Of a DNA stretch of 64,000 bases, positions 24,449-29,969 are shown piece after piece. The position numbers and the translations under genes are program-made. Below the pieces are notes generated by a model. The model was not told where the DNA came from, did no database searches, and worked only from the letters and a program-made list of their open reading frames with translations. Source of the DNA: Nitrospira sp. (GTDB taxonomy: Bacteria; Nitrospirota; Nitrospiria; Nitrospirales; Nitrospiraceae); assembly GCA_022226955.1 (NCBI GenBank), contig CP092079.1:1829053-1893052 (forward strand). Reading direction: 5' to 3'. Numbering within the stretch: the first letter of the stretch is position 1; every line of letters begins with the position of its first letter.

Positions 24449-26467
24449 CTAACAACAGCCGGTTCCGTCCGGCAACCTGAATCCCTTACAAGGCTCCTCT
24501 TTCGTCACCGCCGTTTGCATCCGCCCCGCCGAACCGCCACCGGCCATCACCACGACTTCACTGCTCGTGAAGGGCTTCTTCAAAATCACATAGCCATACC
24601 ACTGCCTCATGCTGTCGCTCAAGACGATCAATCCGAGAATCGCCACCACCGCCACAAGCGCCGCGTCGAGATACAGCGAAAACGCCTGCCCCGCTGCCAG
24701 CGTTGAGGCCTTCGTCATGAACATTCCGAACATCTCATAGGACCCAGCCAGCGTCACGACACCAACAAACAACATCGGCACGGCCGTCACCCAGAGATAC
24801 GGCGACTTCCACATTTTGATCAACACCGTCGTCCCGATGCAGAGAGCCAGCGTCCCCAGCAGTTGATTCGCCGCGCCGAACATCGGCCAGATCGTCGAGA
24901 TGCTTCCCGTCCCGATCAAATAGGACCAGGAACCGACCACGAGCGCACTGCTCAGCAACACTCCAGGCCACCAATTCATCCGGCGAAACGGCGCATAGAC
25001 CCGCCCCGCCATTTCCTGAATCAGATAGCGCGCCACACGCGTCCCCGTATCGATCGTGGTCAGAATAAACAAGGCCTCAAACACCAGGGCGAACTGATAC
25101 CAGTAGGCCATCAACCCCGCCATCCCCGGCAGGGCGGCAAAGATCGACGCCATGCCCACCGCAAGCGAGACCGCTCCGCCTGGCCGGCCAGCCACCTCCA
25201 CCTCAACCAACTGCGACAGGTCCGCAATGCGCGACGGAGCAAATCCCATCGCCGCCAGCGTATCGGCACTCAACGTCGTATTGATCGCCAGGTAATCGCC
25301 GGGAATCAGCACCGACGCCGCAATCAACGCCATCACGCCGACGAAACTTTCCAGCAGCATCGCCGCATAACCCACCACCGCCTGCGACTCCTGCTCGATC
25401 ATCTTCGGCGTCGTGCCGGACGCGACCAGCGAGTGAAAGCCCGACACCGCCCCACAGGCAATCGTAATAAAGAGAAAGGGAAAGAGCGTGCCGGGAATAA
25501 TCGGCCCGCCGCCATCGGCAAACGCCGTCACGCGCGGCATCTCAATCGTCGGCGCCATGAGCACCACACCAAACCCGAGGAGAAACACCACACCCAGCTT
25601 CATAAAGGTGCTGAGATACCCACGCGGCACCAGCAGCATCCAACCGGGCAAGACCGACGCGAGAAACCCATAGCCGCCCAAGAGCCAGACCAGTGCCGGC
25701 CGGTCGAACTCAAAGAGCCAGGCATACGACGACTGTCCGACCACACGGCCAAACAACACCGCCGCAATCAGCAGCACCACACCGATGCTTGAGACTTCTG
25801 CCACTGCGCCGGGACGAAATTTTTGGAGATAAAACCCCATGATAAAACCGATGGGAATCGTCATCGCGATCGTGAACGTGCCCCAGGCATTGTGGTAGAG
25901 CGCATTCACCACTGCGAAGCCCAGCCCAGCCAGCGCCACCACGACAATAAAGAGTACCGCCACCGCCGTAGCCGTTCCGGTGATAGACCCGAGTTCATCG
26001 TGCGCAATCTCGGGGAGCGACCGGCCATTCCGCCGCATCGACGCCACGAGGATAATGAAATCCTGCACCGCCCCCGCCAGCACCGCACCGACCACCAACC
26101 AGAGAAACCCTGGGAGAAAACCGAACTGCGCCGCCAGCACCGGCCCCAACAACGGCCCCGCCCCGGCAATCGCCGCAAAGTGATGACCGAAGAGCACAAC
26201 TTTATTCGTGGGGTGAAAATTCACTCCGTCGTTCATCCGCACAGCGGGAGTGACCCGCTGATTGTTTAGCTCGACGACCTGCCGGGCGAGCCAGCGGCCA
26301 TAGAAGCGATAGGCCAGCACATAGATGCAGGCCGCCGCGACGACCAGCCACAGCCCATTCACTTTTTCATGGGGATTGACGACGCCGACCACATGGGCCA
26401 GCGCCACAGCGCCAAGAACAGAGAGCAGCACCCAGATGAGATGAAGGACGTGTCGCACGCGGCGCAT
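24449..26467 (-). CDS. cstA: Carbon starvation protein A (peptide/pyruvate transporter family)
   Basis: The 672-residue protein has some 16-18 hydrophobic spans and the CstA landmarks HVVGVVNPHEKVNGLWLVV, TNKVVLFGHHFAAIAGAGPLLGPVLAAQFG, CGAVSGFHSLVASGTTPKMI, and IDTGTRVARYLIQEM. E. coli CstA and its paralogue BtsT transport peptides and pyruvate. The C-terminal tail is short and cysteine-containing (TGCC). The gene ends 14 bases before the yajQ start. A 75-base decayed copy of its 5' end lies at 27105-27179. Confidence 0.95.
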   Translation of the reverse strand: MRRVRHVLHLIWVLLSVLGAVALAHVVGVVNPHEKVNGLWLVVAAACIYVLAYRFYGRWLARQVVELNNQRVTPAVRMNDGVNFHPTNKVVLFGHHFAAIAGAGPLLGPVLAAQFGFLPGFLWLVVGAVLAGAVQDFIILVASMRRNGRSLPEIAHDELGSITGTATAVAVLFIVVVALAGLGFAVVNALYHNAWGTFTIAMTIPIGFIMGFYLQKFRPGAVAEVSSIGVVLLIAAVLFGRVVGQSSYAWLFEFDRPALVWLLGGYGFLASVLPGWMLLVPRGYLSTFMKLGVVFLLGFGVVLMAPTIEMPRVTAFADGGGPIIPGTLFPFLFITIACGAVSGFHSLVASGTTPKMIEQESQAVVGYAAMLLESFVGVMALIAASVLIPGDYLAINTTLSADTLAAMGFAPSRIADLSQLVEVEVAGRPGGAVSLAVGMASIFAALPGMAGLMAYWYQFALVFEALFILTTIDTGTRVARYLIQEMAGRVYAPFRRMNWWPGVLLSSALVVGSWSYLIGTGSISTIWPMFGAANQLLGTLALCIGTTVLIKMWKSPYLWVTAVPMLFVGVVTLAGSYEMFGMFMTKASTLAAGQAFSLYLDAALVAVVAILGLIVLSDSMRQWYGYVILKKPFTSSEVVVMAGGGSAGRMQTAVTKEEPCKGFRLPDGTGCC

Positions 26468-26583
26468 CCTAACAACCCGCCAGCTGCTTGTAAATCAAGA
26501 GTCTTGCCGCTAATCTAGTGAAGCCTGCTGAATTTAGGACAGTGTTTATCAGGCTTTTGATCCCTAGTTTCACCCAAAACGAG

Positions 26584-26775
26584 ATGTCTATGCCTTCGGC
26601 CAAAGAACAAATCGCAAAGATTCTTCAGGATCAGCCAGACGACAGTTCCTACGATGAAATTCTGCGGGAGTTAGCTTTCGCGCGAATGATCGAAAGAGGC
26701 CTGGCCGACTCGGATGCAGGGAGAACCATTAGTCATGAAGAGATGGGACGCCGCATCAAGACATGGCAGAGCTGA
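26584..26775 (+). CDS. Antitoxin of a ParE/RelE-type toxin-antitoxin pair
   Basis: The 63-residue acidic protein has the layout of small antitoxins paired with ParE/RelE toxins. An N-terminal helix (SAKEQIAKILQDQPDDSSYDEILRELAFARMIERGL) is followed by the frequent C-terminal signature DSDAGRTISHEEMGRRIKTW. It overlaps the downstream toxin gene by 13 bases. ATG at 26584 or 26590 are both possible starts. A weak promoter (TTGTAA, 17 bases, TAATCT at 26488-26516) lies upstream. The class assignment rests on size, overlap and the C-terminal pattern. Confidence 0.88.
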   Translation: MSMPSAKEQIAKILQDQPDDSSYDEILRELAFARMIERGLADSDAGRTISHEEMGRRIKTWQS

Positions 26776-27059
26776 CCTGGACAGCAGAAGCCCAACGATG
26801 GCTGCGCGACATCCATGATTTTATCGCGCAAGATAACCCCGCCGCTGCAACACGCACCGTTACCACGCTCTACCAGAAAACCGAGATCCTCCGAGAGTTC
26901 CCCGAGTCAGGCTACCGCTACTGGCAACAGCCAGACCGCCACATCCGCATTCTTTTACATGGGCACTACAGAATTGCCTACGCGCTCAAGCCTAACGGAG
27001 CGATCGATATCCTCGGCATCTTTCACGGCGCACTGAGTATCGACCGCTACATGCTGTAG
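26763..27059 (+). CDS. ParE/RelE superfamily toxin
   Basis: The 98-residue protein begins AELTWTAEAQRWLRDIHDFIAQDNPAAA, the helix-pair start typical of ParE-like toxins. FPESGYRYWQQPDRHIRILLHGHYRIAYAL and an IDILGIFHGA strand follow, matching the ParE/RelE fold. ParE members poison gyrase and RelE members cut mRNA; the sequence does not decide between them with certainty. The gene lies directly after cstA and just before a decayed cstA fragment, suggesting that the pair arrived as a mobile or selfish unit. Confidence 0.9.
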   Translation: MAELTWTAEAQRWLRDIHDFIAQDNPAAATRTVTTLYQKTEILREFPESGYRYWQQPDRHIRILLHGHYRIAYALKPNGAIDILGIFHGALSIDRYML

Positions 27060-27104: not shown

Positions 27105-27179
27105 GCCGCCGGGACGACCAGCCAAAGTCCATTCATTTTTTCGTGAGGATTGACGACACCGACAAGGTGGCCAGCGCCA
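27105..27179 (-). pseudogene. Decayed fragment of a cstA 5' end
   Basis: These 75 bases align to 26331-26406 inside the intact cstA start with one indel and about ten mismatches. On the minus strand the fragment reads HLVGVVNPHEKMNGLWLVV, against HVVGVVNPHEKVNGLWLVV in the intact protein. The preceding ALA lies in another frame because of the indel. Homology ends abruptly at both sides. It has the same orientation as cstA, so the toxin-antitoxin pair is flanked by a direct repeat. Confidence 0.85.
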
Positions 27180-27290
27180 GAGTGAACCGCTCACTAGAAC
27201 CATCTAGACAGACATGCAGTTTATATTCACACACGGAGAAAGAGGCCGGAACACTCTGAGCTACGCCTCTGAACCGACTGTTGACACTCC

Positions 27291-27360: not shown

Positions 27361-28170
27361 ATGCCCAGGGATAGAGTAGCGCCATTCCTCAGATGGGCAG
27401 GCAGCAAACGTAAGTTACTCCCCCGCCTCACTCCGTATTGGGGAAGTGGCCACACCCGATATATTGAGCCATTCATGGGTTCAGCAGCCTTCTTTTATGC
27501 TACGACTCCAACCTCAGCAATTTTAAGCGATATAAACCAGGACTTGGTAAGCACCTTTGTCTCGGTTCGTGATCATCCTCGCGCGGTTTACAATCGACTC
27601 CTCGACATTCCCAAAGGGAAGCGTAGCTATATAGGGTTACGAAAACTAAATCCGAACTCCCTCGACTCTCTTGATCGAGCCGCTCGGTTTATCTTTCTCA
27701 ATCGCTTCTGCTTCAACGGCATCTATCGCACAAATACAACGGGTGCTTTCAATGTTCCATATTCTCCATCTGGAACGGGAAAACTTCCAACCTGGGATAC
27801 TTTCTTGGCTGCAGCGCGCCCACTAAAATTCGCAGAAATTGTTTGCGATGACTTTGAGTCAGTAGTGGATAACCACGTGCGCACGGGAGACTTTGTATAT
27901 TTGGATCCTCCATATGCAGTGGAGAATCGCCGGGTCTTCAGACAATACGGCCCTCAGACTTTTGGGCTCGAAGACTTGAAACGCATGGATAGTGCTCTAG
28001 AGACGATTGATAAGCGAGGCGCGAAATTCGTTCTCTCTTATGCCTATTCACCGGAAGCAAGAAACTACTTTCAAAACTGGAAAAGCAGAAAAGTTTTTAC
28101 GCAAAGAAACGTTTCAGGATTTGCAAAACATCGCCGAATGGCAGCCGAAGTGATATTCACCAATATCTAA
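27361..28170 (+). CDS. D12-class DNA adenine N6-methyltransferase
   Basis: The 269-residue protein has the D12 (Dam-type) layout: FLRWAGSKRKLLPRL at residues 9-23, EPFMGSAAFF (motif I, SAM binding) at 36-45, FNGIYRTNTTGAFNVPY near 118-133, and the catalytic DPPY at 182-185. It is close to the length of Dam and of D12 restriction methylases. The sequence does not reveal the recognition site. It heads a tight three-gene operon (30 bases to the next gene) that is AT-richer than its surroundings and next to a toxin-antitoxin pair, so horizontal acquisition is likely. It could be the modification arm of a restriction-like system or an epigenetic partner of the ParB-like protein. Confidence 0.93.
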   Translation: MPRDRVAPFLRWAGSKRKLLPRLTPYWGSGHTRYIEPFMGSAAFFYATTPTSAILSDINQDLVSTFVSVRDHPRAVYNRLLDIPKGKRSYIGLRKLNPNSLDSLDRAARFIFLNRFCFNGIYRTNTTGAFNVPYSPSGTGKLPTWDTFLAAARPLKFAEIVCDDFESVVDNHVRTGDFVYLDPPYAVENRRVFRQYGPQTFGLEDLKRMDSALETIDKRGAKFVLSYAYSPEARNYFQNWKSRKVFTQRNVSGFAKHRRMAAEVIFTNI

Positions 28171-28200
28171 GCATCACACTGAGTCGTCAGGAGATTAATC

Positions 28201-29142
28201 TTGGCCGATAGTGTTCAACTCGTAGACCCTCGGTCCTTAAGAGTTAATAAGGACAACCCTCGCCTCATCTTTCATCAGAAAGAACTAGACGAACTTCAGG
28301 ATAGCATCGACAAACAAGGCATTCTGGTTCCCCTCGCAGTCTTCAGGGAAGGGAAAGGATTCCAACTACTGGACGGGGAACGAAGGTGGCGGTGTGCTTT
28401 AAAACTAGGGCTTTCCAGCGTACCAGTGTTGGTACAACCAAAACCTCCAAAGCTGCAAAACCTGATGATGATGTTCGCCATCCATCACGCGCGAAAAGAC
28501 TGGGACCCTCTCCCAACTGCACTCAAGCTCCAAGACTTAGAAAAGGAGTTCAGTGTAATACAAGGTCGGCACCCTTCCGAGGCAGAACTAGCAGGCCTTG
28601 CCTCAATGAGTCGTGGCGAAATAAGGCGATTAAAAAAGCTCCTTGCATTACCTGAGACATATCGAGATGAATTGCTAAAAGAACTTGAAAAGCCACGATC
28701 CGAGCAAATCCTAACAGTTGATCAAGTCCTGGAAGCCACAACCGCTGCAAGCGCCCTTCGCAAGCGAGATGTTGTGACTGCGAAAGGAGAAGATGGACTG
28801 CGCAGAGCAATAATTCAAAAATTTAGAAGCCGAGTTGAAAACAATACCGTTGCCCCAAGACTTCTTGCCAAACTTGCCAGAGGAGTCCAGCGAAACGAGG
28901 TACCTCTTCAAGTAGCAAAGCGGGTTGCAGAAAAGCTCATCAAAGATCCCAAATACTCTATCTCTGACGCATTTAGAGACTCTGTCGCTCAATCAGATTT
29001 TGAGCACAGCATTGAACAACTAGCTGATCGGATCTTCGATAGGCTCAAGGAACACGAAGAGCGCGGATATAAAATAACTGAGAAACTCTTCGCCACCCTC
29101 AAGGCACTAGCGAAAAGGATAGAGCGCTTGCGTGAGGATTAA
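28201..29142 (+). CDS. ParB/Spo0J-like DNA-binding protein
   Basis: The 313-residue protein starts at TTG (28201) with AGGAG suitably upstream. Residues 5-75 form a ParB/sulfiredoxin-type N-terminal domain: VDPRSLRVNKDNPRLIF, ELQDSIDKQGILVPLAVF, and LLDGERRWRCALKLG, with the GERR box at 59-62 that in ParB proteins contributes to CTP binding. Residues 125-150 look like a helix-turn-helix (SEAELAGLASMSRGEIRRLKKLL). The C-terminal half is helical and charged. There is no parA in the window, so this is not an ordinary plasmid or chromosome partition pair. The next gene begins 5 bases later. A site-binding or CTP-switch role in the methylase operon is inferred. Confidence 0.87.
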   Translation: MADSVQLVDPRSLRVNKDNPRLIFHQKELDELQDSIDKQGILVPLAVFREGKGFQLLDGERRWRCALKLGLSSVPVLVQPKPPKLQNLMMMFAIHHARKDWDPLPTALKLQDLEKEFSVIQGRHPSEAELAGLASMSRGEIRRLKKLLALPETYRDELLKELEKPRSEQILTVDQVLEATTAASALRKRDVVTAKGEDGLRRAIIQKFRSRVENNTVAPRLLAKLARGVQRNEVPLQVAKRVAEKLIKDPKYSISDAFRDSVAQSDFEHSIEQLADRIFDRLKEHEERGYKITEKLFATLKALAKRIERLRED

Positions 29143-29147
29143 AGGGC

Positions 29148-29969
29148 ATGGCCAGGCGTACCTATAAAACACTGGCGCTCGAGCTTGAGGAGTATGCGGA
29201 TCGCGTTATACAACACTTAGAGGACCACGGCTACAAAGTCCAAGTAGAGAGAATTGAACTTGGATTCCCACATACCCCTACTCTTCTTGCCAAGAGAGAC
29301 CGCACAACCCTAATCATTGAGGTCGACTCCACAATCAAATTTGACCGTCTTGACGCCTGGAGACGGTATGGAAAGTCCTGTAACCATGACGTTCGAATAA
29401 TTGTCTGCCTCCCAGACAGTGTTCAGGCTTCACCTAAAGATCAGGAACAGATCCGCACCAAGGGGCTTGGTTTATCAACTATCTCGCAAACTGGGGCTAC
29501 TGGCGTTATAGCTCCCATTGATTTGTCTCTCAATATTGCTCTGCCAGATCGAGCCACTCTCCCTAAGAAGCTTAAAGCTCTCTTGGGTGCAACTTATGAT
29601 CATTTTGACCAAGGGTCTTGGCGTGATGGTTTTGAAGAAGCAAGTCGTGTCTTGGAGATTCAGAGCCGTCGATATCTCAAGCATTGGATGCGTACAGGTC
29701 GCATCCAACTGATATCAGCAAAAGGTCCGAGAAAGCTTACAGGCTCAGCAATTGAGAAACTTCCTATGGGAGCACTAGCCAAAACATTTAGAGAGATCGC
29801 AGCCAAAAACGGAACCGATTCTCAGATTGAGAAGACTCTGGAAGCAATCAATCAAGATCGAGTGTCGGTTGTACACCATAGGCACAAGAAAAGAACGGAA
29901 ACGCGGCTCAGGTCAAATGTAGGCCAGAATATGTGGGCGATTGTGGAGGCACTCAAGCTGATAGTTTAG
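29148..29969 (+). CDS. Unknown protein: possible degenerate PD-(D/E)xK-like domain followed by HEPN-like domain
   Basis: I do not recognise a named family in this 273-residue protein. Residues 10-90 have an alpha-beta pattern (ELEEYADRVIQHLEDHGYKVQVERI, then TLLAKRDRTTLIIEVDS, then VRIIVCLPD) that resembles a restriction-endonuclease core. The active-site lysine is replaced (EVD rather than ExK) and no clear PD aspartate is present. Residues 150-273 are helical with FDQGSWRDGFEEASRVLE and, at 238-243, RVSVVH, an R-x4-H that fits the HEPN RNase motif. Translation probably couples to the ParB-like gene 5 bases upstream. The protein is basic overall. Both domain readings are mine and need a profile search. 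Confidence 0.8.
   Translation: MARRTYKTLALELEEYADRVIQHLEDHGYKVQVERIELGFPHTPTLLAKRDRTTLIIEVDSTIKFDRLDAWRRYGKSCNHDVRIIVCLPDSVQASPKDQEQIRTKGLGLSTISQTGATGVIAPIDLSLNIALPDRATLPKKLKALLGATYDHFDQGSWRDGFEEASRVLEIQSRRYLKHWMRTGRIQLISAKGPRKLTGSAIEKLPMGALAKTFREIAAKNGTDSQIEKTLEAINQDRVSVVHHRHKKRTETRLRSNVGQNMWAIVEALKLIV

Follow-up and report, generated by a model that had tools for sequence, protein, structure and literature searches.

The operon described here lies on the plus strand at positions 27361-29969 of a 64,000-nucleotide stretch of Nitrospira DNA (hereafter the window) and encodes a D12 adenine methylase, a ParB-family protein and a protein of 273 aa, referred to below as P3 (Table 1). The three open reading frames have the places and sizes given by an earlier sequence-only reading of the window, and they are separated by intergenic gaps of 30 and 5 bases. 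The same reading had called the operon AT-richer than its surroundings, which agrees with a GC content of 0.47-0.50 in the operon against 0.55-0.64 around it. The genome that contains the window is a single contig of 3.64 Mb.

Table 1. Features of the methylase-ParB-P3 operon, with positions counted from the first letter of the window.
Feature	Position	Strand	Size and start	Basis
D12-class (Dam/DpnM-like) N6-adenine DNA methyltransferase	27361..28170	+	269 aa, ATG	PF02086, TIGR00571, PDB 2dpm
ParB-family protein	28201..29142	+	313 aa, TTG	PF02195, TIGR00180, PDB ParB
P3, two-domain protein, predicted effector	29148..29969	+	273 aa, ATG	37-member iterative HMM family, AlphaFold, Foldseek
P3 N-domain, residues 1-121, restriction-endonuclease-like fold	29148..29510	+		AlphaFold secondary structure; Foldseek
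P3 C-domain, residues 132-273, HEPN-type helical	29541..29966	+		folded alone; Foldseek
P3 E170 codon, Ex3[KR] motif (E170-x3-R174)	29655..29657	+		invariant 36/36; motif described in PMC3710099
P3 R238-x4-H243 codons, predicted HEPN RNase motif	29859..29876	+		R and H invariant 36/36; helix position

Upstream of the operon is a toxin-antitoxin pair (26518-27059), as had been noted before. Its two genes overlap, and the antitoxin, an 85-aa protein that has no Pfam match, precedes a ParE-type toxin (PF05016, 1e-12). At other loci this pair was not seen within the conserved methylase-ParB-P3 unit. The 5' end of a carbon-starvation-like gene on the minus strand (26331-26409) is repeated, directly but imperfectly (about 80 nt, 85%), at 27105-27182 in the interval that separates the toxin-antitoxin genes from the operon, which suggests that an insertion or a duplication took place here. 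No tRNA gene was found in the 64,000-nt window, and comparison with relatives yielded no empty site, the nearest flank homologue being just 49% identical.

The first gene matches D12 methylases throughout its profiles (PF02086, E 4e-38; TIGR00571 dam, 6e-55) and in the DpnM structure (2dpm, 6e-37), with E. coli Dam matched at 1e-23 in the PDB sequence search. The DPPY catalytic motif is at 27904-27915. A cognate active restriction enzyme was not found, as the sole nuclease-fold partner of the methylase is P3, which is without catalytic residues.

The second gene is of ParB type and carries the NPR and GERR boxes that had been read from its sequence (PF02195, 2e-16; TIGR00180, 3e-17, above the cut-off; ParB structures in PDB, 5e-16). 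Its TTG start is supported by homologues that begin with MAES or MAEQ. The protein consists of an N-domain with NPR and DGERR (the latter at 28372-28386), an HTH region and a family-specific C-terminal part. In a 38-member alignment, N19-P20-R21 and D58-R62 are invariant, and alignment and structures show IHxxR in place of the canonical CTP-pocket motif ENxxR, with I94-H95 invariant and R98 kept; ENLQR is intact in the genome's own housekeeping ParB. A survey of 2025 found that ParB folds bind CTP, ATP or GTP, and that the Box II arginine is needed (PMC12704722). The window ParB is probably a nucleotide-binding switch that acts as a DNA-bound clamp. It is not the housekeeping ParB, because the chromosomal parAB of this genome is situated elsewhere, outside the operon; the operon itself has no parA gene.

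P3 has no family match in Pfam, PHROGs, NCBIfam or PADLOC, nor among PDB sequences. When its profile was run against PDB sequences, mainly designed helical proteins came up, and these matches were taken as spurious. The AlphaFold model (pLDDT 95.2) has a degenerate PD-(D/E)xK-fold domain at its N-terminus and a HEPN-type helical domain after it, and Foldseek recovered from it both of the folds that had been surmised from the sequence. The N-domain has the topology alpha-beta-beta-beta-alpha-beta in the model, and among its best Foldseek matches are 3dnx and 3fov (which we take to be MmcB-like), Bax1, Holliday junction resolvases and the small subunit of BspD6I. Matches to PD-(D/E)xK nucleases reach a probability of 1.00, with E 0.004 and above. 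In the viral library the best E is 7e-6, and MmcB-like viral proteins match at 1e-4, in agreement with our assumption about 3dnx and 3fov. The residues EVD do stand in place of ExK (58-60), and the window protein has neither the catalytic Asp (T45) nor the ExK Lys (D60). Among 36 P3 homologues, 32 have T or S at residue 45 and 31 keep E58, and a Lys at position 60 is almost always absent. Since the Asp and the ExK Lys are missing across the 36 homologues, the loss of DNA cleavage appears to be a property of the family and not decay of the window copy, and the effector is likely an RNase, not a DNase.

The C-domain, folded alone with a pLDDT of 96.8, has mostly HEPN proteins among its Foldseek matches (2q00, 8y7f Csx1, 6m6w HepT, 2hsb, 1wwp, Csm6). 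Their probability is at most 0.82 and their E is weak (0.4 and above), so the support comes from the agreement among the matches. The only invariant columns of P3 are E170, R238 and H243 (36 homologues, identity down to 13%), which means that the R-x4-H motif proposed at 238-243 is present and intact in the window, with both residues conserved in 36/36. R238-H243 closes the penultimate helix (222-243), after which comes the last helix (248-272); E170 belongs to E170-x3-R174, and position 174 is R in 20/36. HEPN RNases are described as having an Ex3[KR] element and an Rx4-6H element, the latter at the end of helix 3 or the start of the loop to helix 4 (PMC3710099). Because spacing and helix position fit this description, the three residues can be assigned to the two elements. 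The residue after R238, which in HEPN proteins is typically but not strictly polar, is N in 23/36 and V or I in 13/36, including V239 in the window. With the model and the invariant residues taken together, the C-domain is probably a HEPN RNase and the predicted effector. Of the two activities proposed earlier for the third protein, cleavage of RNA is thus the likelier, given the invariant HEPN residues, and cleavage of DNA the less likely, given the lost catalytic residues.

The distribution of the unit was followed with a scan of 84,980 species genomes anchored on the ParB alignment, which gave 62 loci. As the scan was limited by its pattern, all locus counts are lower bounds. Together with viral contigs, the scan provided 60 usable members of the ParB family, and 63 loci were examined. 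A D12 methylase lies directly upstream on the same strand in at least 52 of the 63 loci, and P3 lies directly downstream of ParB in at least 37, the window counted (by ORF calling and HMM iteration). In these 37 P3 loci the gap between ParB and P3 is always between -35 and +12 bases, and 35 have the methylase upstream on the same strand (one of the others is divergent and one possibly broken). Judged by record titles, the P3 loci are spread over about ten phyla, mostly bacterial, namely Nitrospirota (the window), Actinomycetota, Acidobacteriota, Pseudomonadota, 'Deltaproteobacteria', Verrucomicrobiota, Planctomycetota, Nitrospinota and Zixibacteria, with one Micrarchaeota MAG. The invariance of R238 and H243 in 36 homologues and the recurrence of the gene order in dozens of genomes argue that the operon is not a chance cluster. 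It had further been asked whether the co-occurrence is conserved in defence islands. The neighbourhood of the three genes is indeed conserved, but clustering with other defence genes is modest, with type I restriction-modification genes making up few of 147 flanking proteins at the other loci.

P3 is rare. A single-sequence search found it in 2/396 genomes of the window's phylum, centre genome included, and in the other of the two the gene is partial. This P3-like gene (L002, 97-450) lies at the start of its contig, is 63% identical over the last 100 residues and adjoins DUF6883 and a nucleotidyltransferase-like gene. Searches with the P3 alignment, again with the centre genome included, gave two full-length genes in 395 Luteimonas-family genomes (one with an internal stop) and 1/396 genomes in the phylum around another P3 search locus (L046). 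C-terminal-only matches in two genomes were set aside, one being Ku-like by reading and spurious, and the other having no ParB or methylase context. P3 alone as a query had no match in viral contigs, plasmids or phages, and ParB as a query had none in plasmids or cultured phages. Most further phage ParB loci were other ParB families without P3. One P3-type locus (L102) is in a phage or prophage, beside what reads as a tyrosine integrase.

While the ParB family is constant in these loci, the third gene is of four classes: P3 in 37, PRTase-CE in 17 (truncated copies counted), a protein with an Mrr_cat nuclease in 4 and a 236-aa protein in 2. The PRTase class appeared in the first ParB search of the phylum as a D12 methylase-ParB-PRTase-CE cassette on a phage contig of one distant genome, and the viral-contig scan with ParB found it in phage and prophage contigs as well. 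Its third protein matches PF24390 (4e-31), the PADLOC models of the retron type III-A effector (E down to 2e-29) and, weakly, the NCBIfam 'phosphoribosyltransferase-like anti-phage protein' (DS32). D12 methylase-ParB-PRTase-CE cassettes were seen at eight loci (L005, L007, L008, L009, L062, L064, L066, L068). The first four are in phages or prophages, L007 beside a tyrosine integrase by reading, and such phage-borne cassettes are candidate defence modules of their own. At L050, L052, L058 and L070 the ParB family member is accompanied by a protein that ends in an Mrr-type PD-(D/E)xK nuclease (Mrr_cat, PF04471, 7e-6), possibly a DNase version of the system. At L047 and L048 the methylase-ParB pair is followed by the 236-aa protein, which has no known family. 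When the N-terminal parts of the Mrr-type and 236-aa proteins were compared by hhalign with the N-domain of P3, E was 0.002-0.003 at a probability of 9-12% (reversed controls 0.27-0.28), which is only suggestive of a common origin.

The methylase changes far more often than the effector. By motif, we distinguish three methylase types across the loci (YRTN/DPPYAV, DPPYVTxHxN and YMGTK; our own classification). On the ParB tree the methylase type requires at least 11 changes, and the effector class requires 3, the minimum for four classes. The correlation of pairwise identities is 0.75 for ParB and P3 and 0.19 for ParB and methylase. Among pairs matched for overall ParB identity, the similarity of the ParB recognition helix is about equal for same and different methylase types. 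From these three comparisons it follows that ParB and the effector form a fixed core on which the methylase is exchanged. In addition, seven PRTase-type loci have no adjacent methylase, so a neighbouring methylase is not indispensable at these loci. One part of the sequence-only reading, in which ParB detects, or spreads along, sites that the operon's methylase has not modified, finds no support here. With the methylase exchanged and the recognition helix independent of its type, ParB is not favoured as a reader of that methylase's own site, unless the three methylase lineages share one specificity.

We consider it fairly probable that the operon is a modular, modification-linked system of defence or addiction in which ParB controls a HEPN RNase. 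The methylase would mark the resident DNA, and the ParB-family protein, as the permanent partner of P3, would control it. P3 would be the effector. Its dead restriction-fold domain would bind DNA or a partner, and the HEPN domain, which probably dimerises, would cut RNA upon the arrival of foreign DNA or the loss of methylation, so that growth or phage replication is stopped. We infer, in short, an RNase activity, its regulation by ParB, a role of the methylase and an anti-phage function. The replacement of P3 by PRTase-CE or an Mrr nuclease supports this reading, as these resemble conflict effectors, while the modest defence content of the flanks, the weak Foldseek E of the HEPN domain, the Val that takes the place of the usual polar residue after R238 in the window's P3 and the PRTase loci without methylase count against it. 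A more specific form of the proposal makes the ParB-type nucleotide-gated clamp itself the immune sensor, with methylation governing its loading and the clamp switching on the HEPN RNase, the Mrr DNase or the PRTase; this we regard as possible, though somewhat doubtful.

Other explanations give the same genes different roles. The operon could be a selfish addiction module of mobile elements, with P3 as a toxin kept inactive by ParB and/or by the methylation state, so that cells losing the element die or stall and defence is a by-product. Cassettes in prophages next to an integrase (L102, L007), the usual tie of the ParB family to replicon maintenance, the toxin-antitoxin pair adjoining the operon in the window and a ParB-effector pairing as fixed as that of antitoxin and toxin would all suit this explanation. 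However, there are no plasmid matches, many chromosomal copies are without a recognisable integrase close by, and the alternative third genes include a known anti-phage effector family and an Mrr-type DNase; we therefore think it unlikely. Since methylases are exchanged while ParB and P3 stay paired, this pair need not read a methylated sequence, and it might instead monitor the methylase or a host process and fire when a phage anti-restriction protein disables it, much as PrrC does for EcoprrI. PrrC-type logic has been proposed for restriction-modification-linked HEPN proteins (PMC3710099). Such a guard would have to recognise three quite different methylase lineages, and some PRTase-type loci have no methylase to be guarded, which makes this quite improbable. 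Lastly, an orphan methylase and a ParB could serve to partition an island or to control its expression, P3 being a non-toxic nucleic-acid-binding accessory. The ParB fold, the dead nuclease domain and the missing partner restriction enzyme are compatible with this, and HEPN domains can be non-catalytic. Yet the invariance of Rx4H and of the Glu upstream of it is what one would expect of an active RNase, parA is missing from the window operon, and P3 is swapped with Mrr nucleases and PRTase-CE effectors, so that we give this explanation very little weight.

The three-gene module is real, conserved and apparently unnamed, and annotation pipelines miss it because P3 has no family model. That no named system has this composition, as the sequence-only reading had supposed, agrees with PADLOC, NCBIfam, Pfam and the literature searched. 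In that literature, which covered few subscription papers and preprints and so may have missed a description, none of the D12 methylase-ParB-P3 composition was found. If the reading as a ParB-controlled defence or addiction system is true, a widespread but rare modification-linked system would be added to those known, and ParB proteins outside partition would act as controllers of effectors. There would also be a natural experiment, with one ParB lineage, swappable methylases and several effector types, and the role of ParB-like proteins in defence and prophage loci would become directly testable. If the clamp is a sensor, modification-dependent immunity would gain a new class, founded on the switch of chromosome partition.

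The closest prior statement that we found is a table line on the HEPN family MAE_28990 (PF18737), 'In operon with a ParB nuclease and DNA methylase genes' (Anantharaman et al. 2013, PMC3710099, Table 1). The window operon likewise has a HEPN RNase-type protein beside a ParB-superfamily protein and a DNA methylase. Membership of P3 in PF18737 was considered and rejected, as none of 36 P3 proteins matches it at E 0.5, nor any HEPN Pfam model, and the window's genome has no PF18737 match. Of five PF18737 loci taken from the phylum, four have a partner that reads by its motifs as DUF262-type (GmrSD-like), some with genes resembling C5-methylases and Vsr, whereas the window system has a ParB_N/GERR protein and a D12 methylase instead. 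HEPN_MAE_28990 genes beside DUF262-type proteins were seen in relatives of the window's genome at L073, L074, L075 and L077.

Several better-known systems share single elements with the operon. DndB, DpdB and similar proteins are ParB-superfamily members inside DNA-modification systems, but their partners are phosphorothioation or deazaguanine machinery, and the window has a classical ParB N-domain with HTH (TIGR00180 match) and a D12 methylase. PrrC, RloC and other restriction-modification-coupled HEPN RNases also link an RNase-type effector to a DNA-modification enzyme; in contrast, there is no type I system in the window unit, and control is presumably via ParB. The retron type III-A and the anti-phage system DS-32 share the PRTase effector family with the third gene of the sister branch. 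Here that gene is accompanied by ParB and usually also by a D12 methylase, the conserved unit has no reverse transcriptase, and the third gene in the window's ParB branch is P3. As in Type II restriction-modification of the DpnII kind, a Dam/DpnM-like D12 methylase is operonic with a restriction-endonuclease-fold protein, but in the window this fold is predicted to be dead, a HEPN domain is attached to it and ParB is inserted. The window's genome has a second D12 methylase (L086, 1315-3104), and the adjoining gene encodes a 276-aa protein that, by reading of its sequence, may be a restriction enzyme.
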